A stretch of DNA of 64,000 nucleotides, taken from positions 1-64,000 of the forward strand of contig NZ_PDKG01000004.1 of the NCBI RefSeq assembly GCF_004116725.1, given 5' to 3'. Every line of letters begins with the position of its first letter. The first letter of the stretch is position 1. Positions 32,388-39,606 of this stretch are shown here, piece by piece. The notes under the pieces were generated by a model. The model made no database searches. It had not been told where the DNA came from and saw only the letters and a program-made list of their open reading frames with translations. Origin of the DNA: Arcobacter sp. CECT 8986. Lineage in GTDB: Bacteria; Campylobacterota; Campylobacteria; Campylobacterales; Arcobacteraceae. The translations under genes were made by a program, and so were the position numbers.

Positions 32388-32404
32388 TTTTTTATTAAAA
32401 AACT
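32386..32404. terminator. Weak A/T hairpin after the MFS gene
   Basis: AGTTTTTT (32386-32393) pairs with AAAAAACT (32397-32404) around ATT. It starts within the stop codon. Stability is low because nearly all pairs are A-T. Confidence 0.4.
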
Positions 32405-32416
32405 TCATTAATTAAA

Positions 32417-32515
32417 TTATCTTATATTTTTACCTTTATTATAATCATATTTGCCAATAGCTAAAAAAATACCTACTACTAAAATTATTCCCACAAAAAT
32501 TTCTATATAGTCCAT
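32417..32515 (-). CDS. Putative 32-residue single-helix membrane protein
   Basis: On the minus strand an ATG at 32515 with AAGGG about 7 nt upstream opens a frame to TAA at 32417. The product is one hydrophobic helix (start MDYIEIFVGIILVVGIFLAI) and a short charged tail GKYDYNKGKNIR. It lies downstream of, and on the same strand as, the 32601-33017 gene. Coding reality rests on the SD and hydrophobic pattern only. Confidence 0.4.
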   Translation of the reverse strand: MDYIEIFVGIILVVGIFLAIGKYDYNKGKNIR

Positions 32516-32600
32516 AATAAACCCTTTTTTTAATTTTCTATACAAGTTAAACTTTATTTTTATATAAATATTCTATTAATAAGATCCTAACAAAAGAAGA

Positions 32601-33017
32601 TTAAAATCTTCTTTTAAAATCATTATACCCCATAAATAAACCAGTCATTCCAACATATACTATAAAAGATATAGCTAATAAACCAAAAATTAATTCTAAA
32701 TAATCTTCAAAATGATACTTTTTTGGTTTTGCATTTTTATCATCTAAATATTGATTATAAAACATATTTAAATATCTGTAGTATTGTTCTTTTGTTCTAA
32801 TATTATAATAAACACTTTTAAATCGATCTTTTACTATATGAGCCATTCTCCCAGCTTCACCTGTACATATCTCATCCCTTGATATTTTATTACTACCTGT
32901 GCTTATAATATCAAAAACTGAACTATTTCCACACCAACTAGGATATTTATCTGTTTCAGCATTCAAACTACTTAAAAATCCAACAACTATCATTGCTATA
33001 ATTATTAATTTTTTCAT
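32601..33017 (-). CDS. Exported protein of unknown function with C-terminal membrane helix
   Basis: This 138-residue product has a signal peptide (1 to about 20, VVGFLSSLNA), a hydrophilic region with two cysteines (YPSWCGNS and DEICTGEAGRM) that could form a disulfide, and a membrane segment near 105-125 (LIFGLLAISFIVYVGMTGLF). The frame is open to 33077, but ATG 33017 has SD AAAGGAAA and gives a standard signal peptide. It lies 25 nt after hipA on the same strand. I do not recognise a family. Confidence 0.65.
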   Translation of the reverse strand: MKKLIIIAMIVVGFLSSLNAETDKYPSWCGNSSVFDIISTGSNKISRDEICTGEAGRMAHIVKDRFKSVYYNIRTKEQYYRYLNMFYNQYLDDKNAKPKKYHFEDYLELIFGLLAISFIVYVGMTGLFMGYNDFKRRF

Positions 33018-33042
33018 ATTATTTCCTTTTGTAGTTGTAATT

Positions 33043-34395
33043 TTAACTAAATATATCTTTAGCTTTTTCTTCATCATCTTTTATTATATTTTTATTTATA
33101 AAATCTACTCTTTGTTTATAATACTTTTTATATATTGCTTCAAGTGTTACTTTGTATCTATATTTATTAGTTATAAACTCTAAGTTCTTTATCTCTTTTG
33201 GATATAGATTAAAAAAACTTAAAAACTCTTGTTTAAAAAAGTTGCATATTTTATATGTAACCTCTGTCACTTCTTTTTTATTTAAATCTATATATTCCCC
33301 TACTTTGATAATATCATCAAGTTTAATATTACTTGTCTTATTTAATAGTTTTATACCTATATCTTTAGTACCTAAATCCTTATATATTTTAGTTGTAGAA
33401 ATATCATAATAAGGTGCAATACTTTTTTTATTTGTATCTATATTATTTGAACTATTTATTAATGAAATATTTTTAGAGTGTAAATCTCCATGACCTATTA
33501 TTATACTAAAGATAAAAAAACTATATAACTCTTTTATATCTTCATTTGATATATACTCTTTTGCTTTTTGCATAACTTTTTTTACTGTTGTATCATATTT
33601 TTTATTTGACATCATATTTAAAAGTGTTGCCAATTCTTCATGGTCAAAGCTTATATTTTTATATCTATCATATCTTTTTATGATGTAGTGATAATCTTTA
33701 TTTCCTTTTATTATTGCATTGTAAGGAATACTAAAACCAAATTTTTTTGCAAAACTCATAAAAAGATGTTCATTGATTAATAAATAAGGAGCATATAGAC
33801 TATCATTTTTAGTATTGTAATCAAGATAAGCATTATTATATGGCTTCATAAAATAATTTGTATTTTCAGCTTTTATAACTTCTTTTTTAACTTCATCTAA
33901 TTTTATACTAAATTTGTATTGATATCCACTAAGTCCAATTACTTTACTACTTTTGGATAAGTCAATAGGATGTAATATATCTTCATCTACATTAAGTTTA
34001 TACTCTTCTAATATATTAGGGAACTCGTAATCTCCCAATATTTCCTTTTTTACTTCACTATAATTATATATTGAGGTTTCATTTAAAATTAAAGTATTTA
34101 AATCTTCTTCTTTACAAAATTTAAAACTTCCATGTATTGATTCAAGGTAAAGTAATACTTCAATATTTGTACTAATATTATTCTTATTTTTTAATACACT
34201 TATATGTTGATTTTCAGGTAATAAATTTTCAAATATAGGAAATAATCCATCATATGAAATATTTATTTTTTCTTCTAGTCCAATAAGATATTGGCTCTTT
34301 TTTATTTCATCATTATATTTAAATATAATTTCATTAAATTTTTTCTCTTCAAGATATCCTAAAACTATATTTTGTTTAATTACATATATCTTCAT
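33043..34395 (-). CDS. HipA-family serine/threonine kinase (putative toxin)
   Basis: This 450-residue HipA-type kinase has an N-subdomain pattern FPIFENLLPE (52-61), glycine-rich SGYQYK (156-161), nucleotide-binding Lys184 in YFMKPY, catalytic HGDLHSKN (Asp304, Asn309) and metal-binding Asp331 in APYYDIST. All kinase residues are therefore present. E. coli HipA is inactivated by phosphorylation of a Ser in this loop; here the Ser sits just before the Gly (Ser156). HipA normally follows an HTH antitoxin gene (hipB). None is present here. Instead an AbiEi-like gene is divergent, and the promoter overlaps a 24-bp palindrome. SD TTAGGAAAT precedes the start. HipA kinases phosphorylate aminoacyl-tRNA synthetases and arrest growth; the target here is unknown. 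Confidence 0.85.
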   Translation of the reverse strand: MKIYVIKQNIVLGYLEEKKFNEIIFKYNDEIKKSQYLIGLEEKINISYDGLFPIFENLLPENQHISVLKNKNNISTNIEVLLYLESIHGSFKFCKEEDLNTLILNETSIYNYSEVKKEILGDYEFPNILEEYKLNVDEDILHPIDLSKSSKVIGLSGYQYKFSIKLDEVKKEVIKAENTNYFMKPYNNAYLDYNTKNDSLYAPYLLINEHLFMSFAKKFGFSIPYNAIIKGNKDYHYIIKRYDRYKNISFDHEELATLLNMMSNKKYDTTVKKVMQKAKEYISNEDIKELYSFFIFSIIIGHGDLHSKNISLINSSNNIDTNKKSIAPYYDISTTKIYKDLGTKDIGIKLLNKTSNIKLDDIIKVGEYIDLNKKEVTEVTYKICNFFKQEFLSFFNLYPKEIKNLEFITNKYRYKVTLEAIYKKYYKQRVDFINKNIIKDDEEKAKDIFS

Positions 34396-34403
34396 TTATT
34401 TCC

Positions 34404-34427
34404 TAATTAAGTATATATACTTAATTA
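34404..34427. promoter_or_regulatory. 24-bp palindromic operator on the hipA promoter
   Basis: This perfect 24-bp palindrome has core TAAGTATATATACTTA at 34408-34423. A minus-strand -10 (TATAAT, 34429 down to 34424) overlaps its edge, and it ends 9 nt before the hipA start. The identical core recurs at 34494-34509, 86 bp away. Confidence 0.8.
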
Positions 34428-34463
34428 TAATATTTGTTAATTAAATATGACTTAATAACTTAA

Positions 34464-34491
34464 TTGACTTTTTTAAATAATCTGATATAAT
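34464..34491 (+). promoter_or_regulatory. Sigma-70 promoter of the AbiEi-like gene
   Basis: TTGACT (34464-34469), a 16-nt spacer and TATAAT (34486-34491) form a near-consensus promoter. The second palindrome begins at 34490, so a bound repressor would cover the -10 end and the transcription start. Confidence 0.75.
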
Positions 34492-34513
34492 ACTAAGTAT
34501 ATATACTTAGTAT
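34490..34513. promoter_or_regulatory. 24-bp palindromic operator on the AbiEi-like promoter
   Basis: This perfect 24-bp palindrome has core TAAGTATATATACTTA (34494-34509) flanked by ATAC/GTAT. It shares the 16-bp core with the palindrome at 34404 and overlaps the -10/+1 of the plus-strand promoter. The pair is a typical picture of symmetric autoregulation of a divergent locus. Confidence 0.8.
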
Positions 34514-34543
34514 ATTTTATATTAATTCATTAGGATTATTTTA

Positions 34544-35392
34544 ATGCCGAAAAAAAGTATATTTTTTACAAATAAAGATGAAATATTAGAAGGTTTAAAA
34601 AAGAAGTACTATAACCAACATGAACTAATTAAATATCATCAAAAATGTAAAGACAACAAGCTTATTCCTAACTCTATGAATCTTAGTACTTTTTTATCAA
34701 ATTTAAATAATTATGGTTTTTCTGCTAAGTCTATATATACAGATGATGTTATTAAAACTTTATACTCTTTTGAAGAAGATATTAATATTTATGACTTTAC
34801 ATATCATTTTTCAAATAAAGGTTTTTTCTCTATGACTACCGCTTTAAATATTATGAAACTAAGTGATAAAAGAGATAACTTTATATTCTACTCTACTGAA
34901 CTTTCAAAGAAAAATCAATACAAAAATGATATTGAATTAAAACAAGATATTGTTGATAAAGTTTTTTCAAAACCATATAGAAAAACAAAAAAATATTTCA
35001 AATATGAAGATAAATATATAGTACAACTTTCACCAAAATATAGTAATAATTATGAAGTTATAGAATACAACGGATATAACATTTCCTCAATAAATAGAGT
35101 ATTTGTAGAACTAATGGTAAATATTCAGTATTTTAAAGATGAAGATTATCTTATTGAAATAATCAAACCTCTAAAAGAAAAATTTGATATTAATAAAATC
35201 TATTCAATTATTGAAAAGTTTGATTATATATATCCTTATTTTCAATTAGCAGGATATTATCTTGAAAAAATAGGATTTACTAAAGATGAATTAATAATAT
35301 TTAAAAATCGAGTTACTCCTATAAAATTCTACACTCAAAAGATGCTTGAAAACAAAAAGTTTAATAAATATTGGAATATTTATCACTATTAG
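34544..35392 (+). CDS. AbiEi-antitoxin-like protein divergent to hipA
   Basis: This 282-residue soluble basic protein has an N-terminal region (about 10-65) that could be a winged helix (KDEILEGLKKKYYNQHELIKYH). After it, NIYDFTYHFSNKGFFSMTTALNIMKLSD (81-108) and IFYSTELSKK follow the pattern of AbiEi-type antitoxins (Y-hydrophobic, S-SALS, GL, threonine-rich strand). AbiEi proteins are DNA-binding antitoxins usually paired with the AbiEii nucleotidyltransferase, which is absent here. The divergent HipA kinase and shared operators suggest it regulates and perhaps neutralises HipA. SD AGGAT precedes the start. The family call is tentative. Confidence 0.55.
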   Translation: MPKKSIFFTNKDEILEGLKKKYYNQHELIKYHQKCKDNKLIPNSMNLSTFLSNLNNYGFSAKSIYTDDVIKTLYSFEEDINIYDFTYHFSNKGFFSMTTALNIMKLSDKRDNFIFYSTELSKKNQYKNDIELKQDIVDKVFSKPYRKTKKYFKYEDKYIVQLSPKYSNNYEVIEYNGYNISSINRVFVELMVNIQYFKDEDYLIEIIKPLKEKFDINKIYSIIEKFDYIYPYFQLAGYYLEKIGFTKDELIIFKNRVTPIKFYTQKMLENKKFNKYWNIYHY

Positions 35393-35494
35393 TAAATATA
35401 GTAAACCTAGAATATAAAGATTAATTATATTCAAACTTTATTTTTATATAATACAAATCTTAAAAATAAAGTAAACACATAAGGAAAACTCCAA

Positions 35495-36610
35495 ATGAAA
35501 AATTTATTGTTATTATTAACAACTATTGTTGTTGCAATTGCTTTTAGTGGTTGTGGAATGAAACAAAATGAATTAGGTTATTATGTTCCTAGCTCAAAAG
35601 AAGAATTAGTACAAGCAAAAAATCAAAAAATCTTTTTTAAAGATTATACTCCTATTGTTACAAAAAATTCTCTTTTAAAATTAAAAAATTTTATTGAGAA
35701 TAGTAAATATTCTTATAACTTTAAATTTGAAGAAGAATTCAATTATACTCCTACAAAAGATACAGGTATATTAAATTACAATTATCCAACATCATTTTTC
35801 TATTCTGGGGAAAGATTTGACAATGATATATTAGAAGGTTCCATTAAAAAAATAAATAAACCATTTGATTTTAAATTAGTTTTAAAAGACAATGTTTTAG
35901 TATCTACTAAAAAATATTCTAATTATAACGATATTATTAAAGATATGAGAAAAATTGAACTATTATTACAAGATAAGTACAATAGTAATATACCAGATTT
36001 CATAAATACTTATGAAACATCTTTTAGAATGGTTCTTGATGATAATTATCTTAAACAGTATAAACTAGCATTTACTGTTCCAAGAAAAGTGTTTAGTTAC
36101 GGTTCTATAATTAAAAAACAGTTAAAAGAGTATGGATATACATTAGTTGATAATGTTAAAGATGCTAACACATCTTTATTATATGAAAATTCTGTTACAT
36201 TAAAAGGTACAGATCTTAAATATATTAAAAAGTTAAAAGTTTTAGCAAATATTAATTCATCATCAAATCTTACACAAATTGGTGATACTTCAATGAAATT
36301 AACAAATATTTCTGGTCACTCTTCATTACACTCTGCACAAGCAGGTTTAGCAATGATGGGAGTATCTTTATTATTTGACTTTCTTACAAGTGGATCTAAA
36401 TTTCATAACTTTGGCCAAATTAAAATTATTAATAATAAGACTGGTTTAGTAAAAAAAATTACTTTAGATCATAAAACTTTGTATTCATCATATATATATA
36501 ATACAGATATGGATTCTATTAAAGAAGATATAATTAAACAATTAAAAACAGATGAATATAAACATTTTAGGAATCAGGTTGCTTATAGATTTGAAAGAAT
36601 TAAAATTTAA
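35495..36610 (+). CDS. Predicted lipoprotein, function unknown
   Basis: This 371-residue exported protein has signal peptide and lipobox AFSGC (Cys20). The C-terminal half has a stretch rich in Ser/Gly and small residues (SGHSSLHSAQAGLAMMGVSLLFDFLTSG) that might insert in or lie on a membrane. The region YGSIIKKQLKEYGYTLVDNVKDANT recalls the domain of TraT-like surface lipoproteins, but I cannot assign it. A promoter with TATAAT at 35447-35452 and SD AAGGA precede it, and a terminator follows. Confidence 0.7.
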   Translation: MKNLLLLLTTIVVAIAFSGCGMKQNELGYYVPSSKEELVQAKNQKIFFKDYTPIVTKNSLLKLKNFIENSKYSYNFKFEEEFNYTPTKDTGILNYNYPTSFFYSGERFDNDILEGSIKKINKPFDFKLVLKDNVLVSTKKYSNYNDIIKDMRKIELLLQDKYNSNIPDFINTYETSFRMVLDDNYLKQYKLAFTVPRKVFSYGSIIKKQLKEYGYTLVDNVKDANTSLLYENSVTLKGTDLKYIKKLKVLANINSSSNLTQIGDTSMKLTNISGHSSLHSAQAGLAMMGVSLLFDFLTSGSKFHNFGQIKIINNKTGLVKKITLDHKTLYSSYIYNTDMDSIKEDIIKQLKTDEYKHFRNQVAYRFERIKI

Positions 36611-36625
36611 CTATATGTAGTTATT

Positions 36626-36650
36626 AAATCAACCCTATATGGGTTGATTT
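36626..36650. terminator. Bidirectional terminator
   Basis: AAATCAACCC (36626-36635) pairs perfectly with GGGTTGATTT (36641-36650), and TTTTTT follows on the plus strand. It lies between the convergent lipoprotein and mutS7 genes. Confidence 0.9.
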
Positions 36651-36651
36651 T

Positions 36652-39606
36652 TTACTCTTCTATCATTGTATAGTGAAGCTCTAAACCTTTACTTGTAGTC
36701 ACAAATCCATTTATATTTATTTTACCTTCATGTACTAATTTATGATGATTTTTACATAATGGAACTAAATTATATTTGTGATTTGCATTCATATGACCAA
36801 TAAAGCCTTCTTCATCAGCTTTTGCTTGCTCTTTTATATGATGAATATCATCACAAGGTTTACCACAAATAATACAAGTACTTGCAAATACATCTTTATT
36901 ATATTTCGAAGTTTTTCGTTGAGTTAATCTCTCTATTTTATCATAATCATCTGTTATTCTTTTTCTTATATCATTTGCAACACTTAAAAATTCTCTATCC
37001 ATATGTAAAGATTTTGCATACTCTAAACCATACATAGAAGAGCCACTTCCATAAGCTAGTTTTCTATCAAAGATTAGTTTATCTTCTTTATCTTCATACA
37101 TCACAGATAAGTGCAATGAGATAATATTTCTTAGTTGTTCAATCTCTTTTATTTCAGGTAATTGATGTAAATGTGTAGCAAATACAAATATCGCTTCAAG
37201 TTTTGCTAGTTTTAAAATAGCACTTGCAACAATACTTAATCCACTCATTGTTTCTGTACTATGTGATATTTCATCACCTAAAATCAATGATTTTTTTGTT
37301 GCTCTATTGAAAATATTTTTTAACTCAAGCATCTCAACAGCAAATGAAGATAAACCTTTTGCAATATTATCAGCACCGCTAATTCTTGTATAAACTGCAT
37401 CAAATATAGAGAATCTCATAGATTTACACGGTACATAAAATCCAGCTTGAGCTAAGATAACTGCAATACCAATTGATTTCATCAAAGATGATTTTCCAGA
37501 AGAGTTAATACCATAAAGTAAAACTCCATTCATTTTATTGTCTGTTATATTTAATGGATTTGAGTTTTTAACTATTACATTATCTTTATACTCTTTTGAA
37601 ACATAATTTAATTGCCCCATAATCACATCATTAGGAACATAAACACCCTGCTCTTCATTTGATTCAATAATAGGATGTCTTAAATCAATTAGTTCTAAAA
37701 AGTTTTCATTTTCTTGAGTTTTTACAATTTTAGGACAAGAGTAGTTATATTTTTTTGCTGTTTTTATATTTGAAACTGTTAAGTCAACCTCAGCAATAAA
37801 CTGTACTAATTCTTCTAATAATTGTGCAAATTTTTTCTCAAATTCAACTAATTTTTCTTTAAATACTAATTTATTTAATTCAACTATTTTTCTTAGATTA
37901 TGTACATATTTATCTGAAATAGTCTCTGTTAGGCTACAAGATATTTTTACATTTGTAGTTTGTACTTTTATTTTAAAATCTTTAAATAAAAGTAAATCAT
38001 CATCAATAATTAGGTGTGAATTTAATAATTCATCTTTTACTAGATTAAATCTATTTTTTGTCAAAGATAGATAAAATCCCTCTTTATCAAGTCTATTTAT
38101 ACTAACTTGATTTTTATCATCACTTTTTAAATAAGATAAAATATGCTCTTTTAATAAATCAAGTTTTGAGTAAAGTTCCAAGTTTTGATTTGTATATTCA
38201 TCTATTTGAACATTTATTCCTTCACAAACCATATTTGAATCAACATCTTTTAACATAAATTTACCAGATACATTCAAATCAAAAGTAGAATCAATAGAAT
38301 CAATAAAAAGTTGTAATTCAGAAGAGCTACAAGGAGGAGTGAAAAACTTATAGTTTTCCATAAATTTAACAACCTCTTTTATACTAAGCAATGAATCATA
38401 CAAATAGTTTAACTCAAAAGGGTGTAATCTATTTAATTTTATTCTTCTTGTTAATCTTTCAATATCATAAATATTTGCTAACTCATTTTCAATTGGAGTA
38501 TGATAATCATAAAGTTTTTCAGATAAATTAAATCTTCTTAATATCTCTTTTTTATCTTTTACAGGATGAGTAAGTCTCTCTTTTAAAAGTCTTTTCCCCA
38601 TAGCTGTTGAAGTATTATTTATAAGTTTTATCAAACTTGGGTTATGAGAAGTTTCTATTATATTTAACTGTTCAAGTGCATTATTTCCTAAATATATATA
38701 TTTTGAAATATCTAATTTTATTGGTAATGATAATTTTTGAACAATATTTGAATCATGCCCAATTACAAAATCAATTAATATTGCAAGTGCTTCTGTACTT
38801 AAAGGTACTCTTTCCATATCAAGATGTTCTATTGATGTTAAAAGAGATTCAATATTAAATACATTTTTAAAAAGCTCATTTTGATAAGTTATTTTAGGTC
38901 GAAAAGAGCCTATATGAAATGTCTTCAAACTAAGTTCTAAATAATCAAGTACTTCTTTTTGGTTTATATTTTTATCTGCAAAAGTAACTACTATTTCATT
39001 AGTTTTGTGCATATTCATATAATTAAATATCTCATCAAGAGCATAAAATTTATCTTCACTTGTACCATGAACTTCATTGTAGTAACATTTTCCAGTTGTT
39101 ACATCAATTGCACTATATCCAACTAAATAGATACCTTTTACTTGGTCAACAACTAAAGAAGTTATATTATTTTCATCTTGGTCAACAACAAAATCAAAGT
39201 TTGTTCCTGGACTTATAACTGTATCTAAATATCTTGATACTTTTGGAGGAAGACCTTTTTGTCTTATTACTACGACTGTATATTTTTGTTCATTTATTAT
39301 TCTTGCTAAATGCTTATCAAAAGATATTGCAGGAACACCTGCCATAATTGGATTTTCTTGTGAGTTCTCTAAAATAGATTTATTTTTTCTTGTTAATTGA
39401 ATATTTAATAGTTCAGCAATCTCTTTTGCTTTTCCTATTTGTTCTTTCTCATTATTTACTTCATAAACTTCAAAAAATGTTCCTATTTCCATAAGAATGA
39501 TAGTATTTTTACCATACTTTTTTTCAAACATTTTTTGAAGTTTGAAATATGTTTTTGTTAATAAAGTCTTTTTTTCATTTAATAATTCTTGAACTTCTTC
39601 TCTCAA
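36652..39606 (-). CDS. MutS7-type MutS with C-terminal HNH domain
   Basis: This 984-residue mismatch-recognition-like protein has an N-terminal domain with the Phe-X-Glu motif (GTFFEVYE, Phe44-Glu46), core and lever domains, ATPase with Walker A GINSSGKSS (about 698-706), Walker B LILGDEIS and FATHLHQL, and then an HNH nuclease-like domain (about 908-955, CIICGKPCDDIHHI...LVPLCKNHHKLVH). This architecture is that of MutS7, known from some Campylobacterota, octocoral mitochondria and giant viruses. A self-contained MutS with built-in nuclease would substitute for MutL-dependent nicking. It starts one base after the haem-binding-domain gene and is the last gene of the operon. Confidence 0.92.
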   Translation of the reverse strand: MREEVQELLNEKKTLLTKTYFKLQKMFEKKYGKNTIILMEIGTFFEVYEVNNEKEQIGKAKEIAELLNIQLTRKNKSILENSQENPIMAGVPAISFDKHLARIINEQKYTVVVIRQKGLPPKVSRYLDTVISPGTNFDFVVDQDENNITSLVVDQVKGIYLVGYSAIDVTTGKCYYNEVHGTSEDKFYALDEIFNYMNMHKTNEIVVTFADKNINQKEVLDYLELSLKTFHIGSFRPKITYQNELFKNVFNIESLLTSIEHLDMERVPLSTEALAILIDFVIGHDSNIVQKLSLPIKLDISKYIYLGNNALEQLNIIETSHNPSLIKLINNTSTAMGKRLLKERLTHPVKDKKEILRRFNLSEKLYDYHTPIENELANIYDIERLTRRIKLNRLHPFELNYLYDSLLSIKEVVKFMENYKFFTPPCSSSELQLFIDSIDSTFDLNVSGKFMLKDVDSNMVCEGINVQIDEYTNQNLELYSKLDLLKEHILSYLKSDDKNQVSINRLDKEGFYLSLTKNRFNLVKDELLNSHLIIDDDLLLFKDFKIKVQTTNVKISCSLTETISDKYVHNLRKIVELNKLVFKEKLVEFEKKFAQLLEELVQFIAEVDLTVSNIKTAKKYNYSCPKIVKTQENENFLELIDLRHPIIESNEEQGVYVPNDVIMGQLNYVSKEYKDNVIVKNSNPLNITDNKMNGVLLYGINSSGKSSLMKSIGIAVILAQAGFYVPCKSMRFSIFDAVYTRISGADNIAKGLSSFAVEMLELKNIFNRATKKSLILGDEISHSTETMSGLSIVASAILKLAKLEAIFVFATHLHQLPEIKEIEQLRNIISLHLSVMYEDKEDKLIFDRKLAYGSGSSMYGLEYAKSLHMDREFLSVANDIRKRITDDYDKIERLTQRKTSKYNKDVFASTCIICGKPCDDIHHIKEQAKADEEGFIGHMNANHKYNLVPLCKNHHKLVHEGKININGFVTTSKGLELHYTMIEE

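Follow-up and report, generated by a model that had tools for sequence, protein, structure and literature searches.

Paired palindromes between a hipA gene and an abiEi-like gene

Two long palindromes lie between a gene for a HipA-family kinase and a divergent gene for an AbiEi-like protein in Arcobacter sp. CECT 8986, and the question is which of the two proteins they serve and whether the pair acts by looping the DNA. Within the window (the whole stretch of 64,000 nt analyzed here), we found a perfect 24-bp palindrome, TAATTAAGTATATATACTTAATTA, at positions 34404 to 34427 (predicted operator O-hip, at the hipA promoter, centered 20 bp 5′ of the hipA start codon) and another, ATACTAAGTATATATACTTAGTAT, at positions 34490 to 34513 (predicted operator O-abi, at the abiEi-like promoter, centered 42 bp 5′ of the abiEi-like start codon), neither being assigned to a strand. 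The 16-bp core TAAGTATATATACTTA is common to both (34408 to 34423 and 34494 to 34509), and the two centers are 86 bp apart, as an earlier note on this DNA had described. That note had also judged two same-core palindromes of this length to be improbable by chance, which the counts bear out: a first-order Markov model of the window predicts 0.015 perfect palindromes of at least 24 bp per 64 kb, and the window holds two, both at this locus. Moreover, the search for the core elsewhere, proposed in the same note as a way to expose a common genomic repeat, returned only these copies, i.e., two exact matches to TAAGTATATATACTTA in the window and the same two in the whole 2.65-Mb genome. A search of 104 genomes of the family gave six occurrences of TTAAGTAWATWTACTTAA, distributed over five genomes and each located at a copy of this module. 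Near-matches to the core (≤2 mismatches) numbered 6 genome-wide versus 15 for a reversed control pattern, and with this lack of enrichment giving no sign of a wider regulon, we set that possibility aside.

Both −10 boxes named in the earlier note, TATAAT at 34424 to 34429 on the (−) strand and at 34486 to 34491 on the (+) strand, are present as described. The abiEi-like promoter (34464 to 34491, + strand) is strong, with a −35 box TTGACT (34464 to 34469), a 16-bp spacer and a TG-extended −10 box (11 of 12 positions matching the consensus). The hipA promoter (34424 to 34453, − strand) combines a good −10 box (34429 to 34424) with a weak best −35 box, AAGTCA (34453 to 34448; 3 of 6 positions) at an 18-bp spacer, which was read directly; because this −35 box is weak, the automated promoter scan picked another pair there. 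The −10 box ends 10 bp from the palindrome center on the (+) side and 8 bp from it on the (−) side. At most of the other loci described below, the hipA-side promoter is near consensus, and most promoters across loci have a near-consensus TTGACA-17-TATAAT arrangement ending exactly 8 bp before the palindrome center, a geometry that makes the palindrome span the position at which transcription is expected to begin.

The two genes and the islet that carries them

The minus-strand gene (33043 to 34395) encodes a 450-aa HipA-family Ser/Thr kinase with Couple_hipA (PF13657, 6.1e-5) and HipA_C (PF07804, 2.2e-28) domains. The motifs by which this kinase family is recognized, in addition to HipA_C, are intact, namely, the P-loop GLSGYQYK, HGDLHSKN (the HGDxHxKN motif) and YDIS (the YD motif), and they are conserved in 13 loci. 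Alignment to PDB entries of HipT (residue numbering taken from PMC10653801) places the P-loop residue S156 of the window's HipA at HipT S59 and a Gly at S57; the AlphaFold2 model of this HipA was of low confidence (pLDDT 64) and was left out of the analysis. By Pfam, the kinase has no DNA-binding domain, and there is no fused helix-turn-helix (HTH) of the HipH/YjjJ kind, Couple_hipA beginning at residue 5. Likewise, we found no adjacent Xre-type HipB such as characterizes hipBA, with no HTH-type Pfam match among the neighboring ORFs tested; instead, the abiEi-like gene lies across the promoter region.

The abiEi-like gene (34544 to 35392, + strand) encodes a predicted repressor and possible antitoxin of 282 aa, with an N-terminal winged HTH (approximately residues 6 to 75) and an AbiEi-type C-terminal domain that is kept whole, with many invariant residues. 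Its sequence gave no significant match in Pfam, NCBIfam, PADLOC or the PDB, and it is just 9 to 13% identical to AbiEi proteins of solved structure. Nevertheless, the earlier label "AbiEi-like" proved right by fold: the AlphaFold2 model (pLDDT 85.8), on which this assignment of an AbiEi fold is based, has Rv2827c of Mycobacterium tuberculosis as its top match (Z 12.4 over 228 residues), followed by AbiEi of Streptococcus agalactiae (6y8q; Z 11.5 over 179 residues), which scored above all but Rv2827c, and Foldseek matched the model to 1zel (E 1.4e-4) and 6y8q (E 3.7e-4). Homology reaches antitoxins linked to AbiEii toxins, with a tblastn match to a Brevibacillus AbiEii-linked gene (E 8e-22) among others and 22 to 26% identity in an alignment with AbiEii-linked antitoxins, one of which matches PF09407 (AbiEi_1) at 1.4e-6. 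The features that mark the AbiEi family, i.e., a winged HTH with the C-terminal fold, homology to AbiEii-linked antitoxins and inverted repeats overlapping the promoter, are thus all found at this locus.

Both genes lie in a low-GC islet of 4.25 kb (32395 to 36649, no strand), which has a GC content of 21.1% compared with 26 to 28% in the flanks and also carries two flanking ORFs. In two genomes of the same genus (G080 and G082) the MFS and mutS-like genes are contiguous, an empty site that identifies 32395 to 36649 as an inserted islet. Two other genomes of the genus (G078 and G079) have other content at this spot, possibly a hotspot of insertion; we saw no clear target-site duplication at the islet. 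The flanking ORFs, a 158-aa one that overlaps the end of hipA (32601 to 33077, − strand) and a 371-aa lipoprotein-like one (35495 to 36610, + strand), have no Pfam match and were not seen beside other copies of the module when their ORF lists were read. Beyond the islet, the gene at 36652 to 39606 (− strand) encodes a MutS-like protein with MutS domains I, III and V, the C-terminal stretch of which weakly matches DUF968/HNH nuclease models. A search with PF08843 found no AbiEii gene in the window's genome or in G070 and G093; the adjacent AbiEii (DUF1814) that defines type IV AbiE is missing here, its neighboring position being taken by HipA, which, with no AbiEii in the genome, is the obvious partner.

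Copies of the module in other genomes

A single-protein query of genome contigs found no relatives of the AbiEi-like protein, and an alignment query recovered them. The protein is present in seven other genomes of the family, every copy adjoining a divergent hipA, and more hipA-linked copies were found on an Aliarcobacter cryaerophilus plasmid, on a Sulfurimonas plasmid, in two Campylobacterota genomes (G408 and G568) and on a contig of a MAG labelled Burkholderiales; no relatives were found in viral contigs, and phage records gave no match. Plasmid records label the protein hypothetical. Twin sites occur at 13 further hipA-linked loci (12 in Campylobacterota and 1 on the MAG contig), and two palindromes lie between the divergent genes at all 13 loci with an intact hipA. 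These counterparts are perfect in most hipA-type loci and carry mismatches in some. Two palindromes are also present in G426, where the contig stops before hipA, and on the A. cryaerophilus plasmid pM830MA (L028, 2283 to 4612), where the frames of hipA and the abiEi-like gene are split and both palindromes are kept, reflecting either a decaying copy or sequencing errors.

The two sites of one locus usually have a common core. In one clade of six loci, TATATA is changed to AAATTT in both sites, the exception being one- to two-base differences at the center of the hipA-side copy in 3 of the 6 loci. All six AAATTT loci have Lys at residue 53 of the recognition helix, where the remaining hipA-type loci have N, R, H, L or F; since the AAATTT core marks one clade, the change at residue 53 counts as a single event and serves as a lead only, and we rejected this residue as an established determinant of operator specificity.

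Sequence identities of HipA and of the AbiEi-like protein are correlated across 13 loci (r = 0.89, Mantel p = 0.0002), and this despite neighboring genes that vary among loci. The two genes have long been inherited together and are a pair, not chance neighbors.

The palindromes follow the abiEi-like gene

In Bacillota and Bacteroidota, plasmids and genomes encode relatives of the AbiEi-like protein whose partner is not HipA but an AbiEii nucleotidyltransferase toxin, the two genes lying tail to tail. Twin palindromes lie upstream of the abiEi-like gene in 11 of 12 of these AbiEii-paired relatives, the twelfth, on a Riemerella plasmid, having one palindrome. The core in Hymenobacter psychrophilus is TAAGTATATATACTTA at both sites, identical to that of the window, and Staphylococcus epidermidis has AAAGTATATATACTTT at both sites. 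Conversely, the next-nearest HipA kinases of the same bacterial family, which have a fused N-terminal HTH-like extension, have neither an AbiEi-like neighbor nor such palindromes. Because palindromes of this kind occur with an AbiEii partner and are absent at HipA kinases that stand apart from an abiEi-like gene, the comparison of sequences assigns the sites to the abiEi-like gene and not to hipA. Kinases of 527 to 572 aa with such a fused extension (L060 to L068), which is approximately 100 aa long, recur in the family and have a HipH/YjjJ-like architecture.

In a midpoint-rooted tree of 26 antitoxins, HipA-paired and AbiEii-paired proteins are split at one fully supported branch; with midpoint rooting only, the change of partner may have run in either direction. 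The positions at which one group is invariant and the other has substitutions fall for the most part within the C-terminal domain (R193 to N, P194, G198, L264 to T and Y266 to K), as would be expected if the partner changed and the DNA site did not.

Two palindromes elsewhere also came to light. On the plasmid of Hymenobacter BRD128 (L033), the distal palindrome, of 30 bp, faces a divergent gene for a 679-aa protein (510 to 2549, − strand), possibly a GHKL-type ATPase by inspection, which raises the possibility that AbiEi-like proteins also regulate divergent genes of other kinds. Near another AbiEii gene in G031 (L104, 1163 to 1192) stands a 30-bp perfect palindrome, AAAAGAGTTTATCTTAAGATAAACTCTTTT, that could serve as a terminator or as the operator of another type of AbiEi.

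A model of repression and its alternatives

We consider it quite probable that the palindromes are operators of the AbiEi-like protein, which would repress its own gene and the divergent hipA, with no need of a loop, in a mobile toxin-antitoxin-like module. The winged HTH domains of the AbiEi-like protein would bind each palindrome as a symmetric pair. Given that the near edge of each operator coincides with the −10 box or falls within it, and that the operator is centered approximately on the transcription start, its occupancy is predicted from this geometry to block RNA polymerase, so that a single protein would probably shut off both its own gene and hipA through one operator per promoter. 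In the resulting mobile two-gene unit, an AbiEi-family protein would take the place of HipB or of the fused HTH, and HipA that of AbiEii. The earlier note had proposed an autorepressor acting at both divergent promoters that might loop the DNA; comparison strongly supports the autorepressor, since the AbiEii-paired relatives keep twin palindromes and make the AbiEi-like protein the common factor, and the loop is set aside.

A loop held by a tetramer, repressing both promoters jointly, would be in keeping with two same-core sites 86 bp apart and with the bending of DNA by S. agalactiae AbiEi (PMC7319586), but we judge it improbable. Spacing between the operators ranges from 75 to 112 bp at hipA-type loci and from 84 to 155 bp elsewhere, i.e., from 7.1 to 14.8 helical turns with no common phase, and thus the fixed spacing and helical phase of loop-forming twin operators are not seen across the loci (75 to 155 bp). 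In Brevibacillus and Flavobacterium, moreover, both operators sit on two tandem promoters. With each operator already overlapping its own promoter, one operator per promoter accounts for all cases and makes a loop unnecessary. Slightly less probable still is recognition of the palindromes by HipA, alone or in a complex with the AbiEi-like protein: kinase-containing complexes of HipBST do form on operator DNA (PMC10653801), but the same kind of palindromes accompanies an AbiEii partner where no HipA is linked, HipA kinases that have no AbiEi-like neighbor have no palindromes, and Pfam detects no DNA-binding domain in the window's HipA. As for an origin in AT-rich composition, in a common repeat or in the ends of a mobile element, we give it almost no weight. 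The region is indeed 21% GC, but the palindrome, genome and 104-genome counts given above rule out chance and AT-richness, equivalents of the sites exist in Hymenobacter, and both sites are internal to the islet, away from its ends.

A separate matter is whether the AbiEi-like protein, besides repressing hipA, neutralizes its product, as the gene pairing suggests. We tentatively entertain, at somewhat less than even chances, a hybrid toxin-antitoxin module in which an AbiEi antitoxin switched partners between AbiEii and HipA and would neutralize HipA directly, possibly by way of P-loop autophosphorylation, with S156 in the position of HipT S59; to the same tentative degree, this joint reading has antitoxin residues 193, 264 and 266 of the C-terminal domain changing with the switch and the operator staying unchanged. 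The route is suggested by the AbiEi-like protein MenA3, reported to induce autophosphorylation of the nucleotidyltransferase toxin MenT3 (PMC11375011), together with the inactivation of Escherichia coli HipA by autophosphorylation of its P-loop serine (PMC10653801). Alternatively, with the same operators, the AbiEi-like protein could be a repressor of hipA and no antitoxin, HipA being a regulated kinase whose activity is limited solely by this repression, or else by autophosphorylation of the kinase itself. This seems to us rather unlikely. In its favor, repression could be tight enough with an operator at each promoter, DNA binding and antitoxicity reside in separate domains in the AbiEi family (PMC7319586), and the HipA-paired clade as a whole has substitutions at C-terminal positions conserved among AbiEii-paired relatives (R193 to N, P194 and G198), which may have altered the usual antitoxin surface; however, the C-terminal domain is kept whole with its many invariant residues, beyond what a repressor would need, and HipA and the AbiEi-like protein co-vary.

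Comparison with known systems

Control by an AbiEi-type operator is itself known, and it is the divergent pairing of HipA with an AbiEi-like protein that is apparently undescribed: our search of the open-access literature, with subscription papers outside its scope, found no description of such a pair, and the passages on HipA in Makarova 2009 contain no pairing with AbiEi. The main text of Gerdes et al. 2021 distinguishes the Hip organizations hipBA, hipBST, hipAB, hipEB, hipH, hipRF, hipRG, hipMP, hipL, hipIN and hipJS (PMC8262856). In that text, Hip kinases recruit varied partners, none of them of the AbiEi type, and the words "AbiEi" and "divergent" do not appear (PMC8262856). The module would link two large toxin-antitoxin families that have been treated as separate, the Hip kinases (type II) and AbiE (type IV), through one repressor family that has an operator conserved across phyla and is paired with two unrelated toxins. 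The conserved needs of DNA recognition would become separable from the changed needs of toxin neutralization, offering a direct way to ask how AbiEi proteins neutralize toxins. In addition, proteins annotated as hypothetical gain a likely function, and the palindromes provide a diagnostic DNA signature for finding further modules.

Like the window, HipBA and HipBST have a HipA-family kinase with P-loop, catalytic and Mg-binding motifs and a DNA-binding partner expected to autoregulate through inverted repeats. However, the window has neither HipB (Xre) nor HipS, and the partner is an AbiEi-like protein of approximately 280 aa encoded on the opposite strand. Furthermore, the inverted repeats of HipB are short, with five or six bases per arm (PMC10653801), whereas the window has long perfect palindromes. 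HipH/YjjJ, in which an N-terminal HTH of approximately 100 aa is fused to the kinase, represents the architecture of the nearest other HipA relatives in the family; in contrast, the window's kinase has no fused HTH, and the DNA-binding function appears to reside in the separate AbiEi-like protein.

The AbiE systems (AbiEi/AbiEii of S. agalactiae and Rv2827c/Rv2826c of M. tuberculosis) resemble the window in the antitoxin fold and in the inverted repeats at the antitoxin promoter, and distant sequence homologues of the window's protein adjoin AbiEii toxins; the partner in the window is instead a divergent HipA kinase, in a genome with no AbiEii. Known AbiEi proteins are autorepressors that act through inverted repeats overlapping the promoter (PMC7319586). 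S. agalactiae AbiEi uses two 23-bp repeats 3 bp apart with positive cooperativity and bending, and Rv2827c uses four repeats with negative cooperativity (PMC7319586). The AbiEi operators characterized so far are built from pairs of 23-bp repeats separated by 3 or 13 bp (PMC7319586), i.e., close pairs at one promoter, whereas the predicted operators in the window are compact 24-bp palindromes with 12-bp half-sites, one at each of the two promoters.
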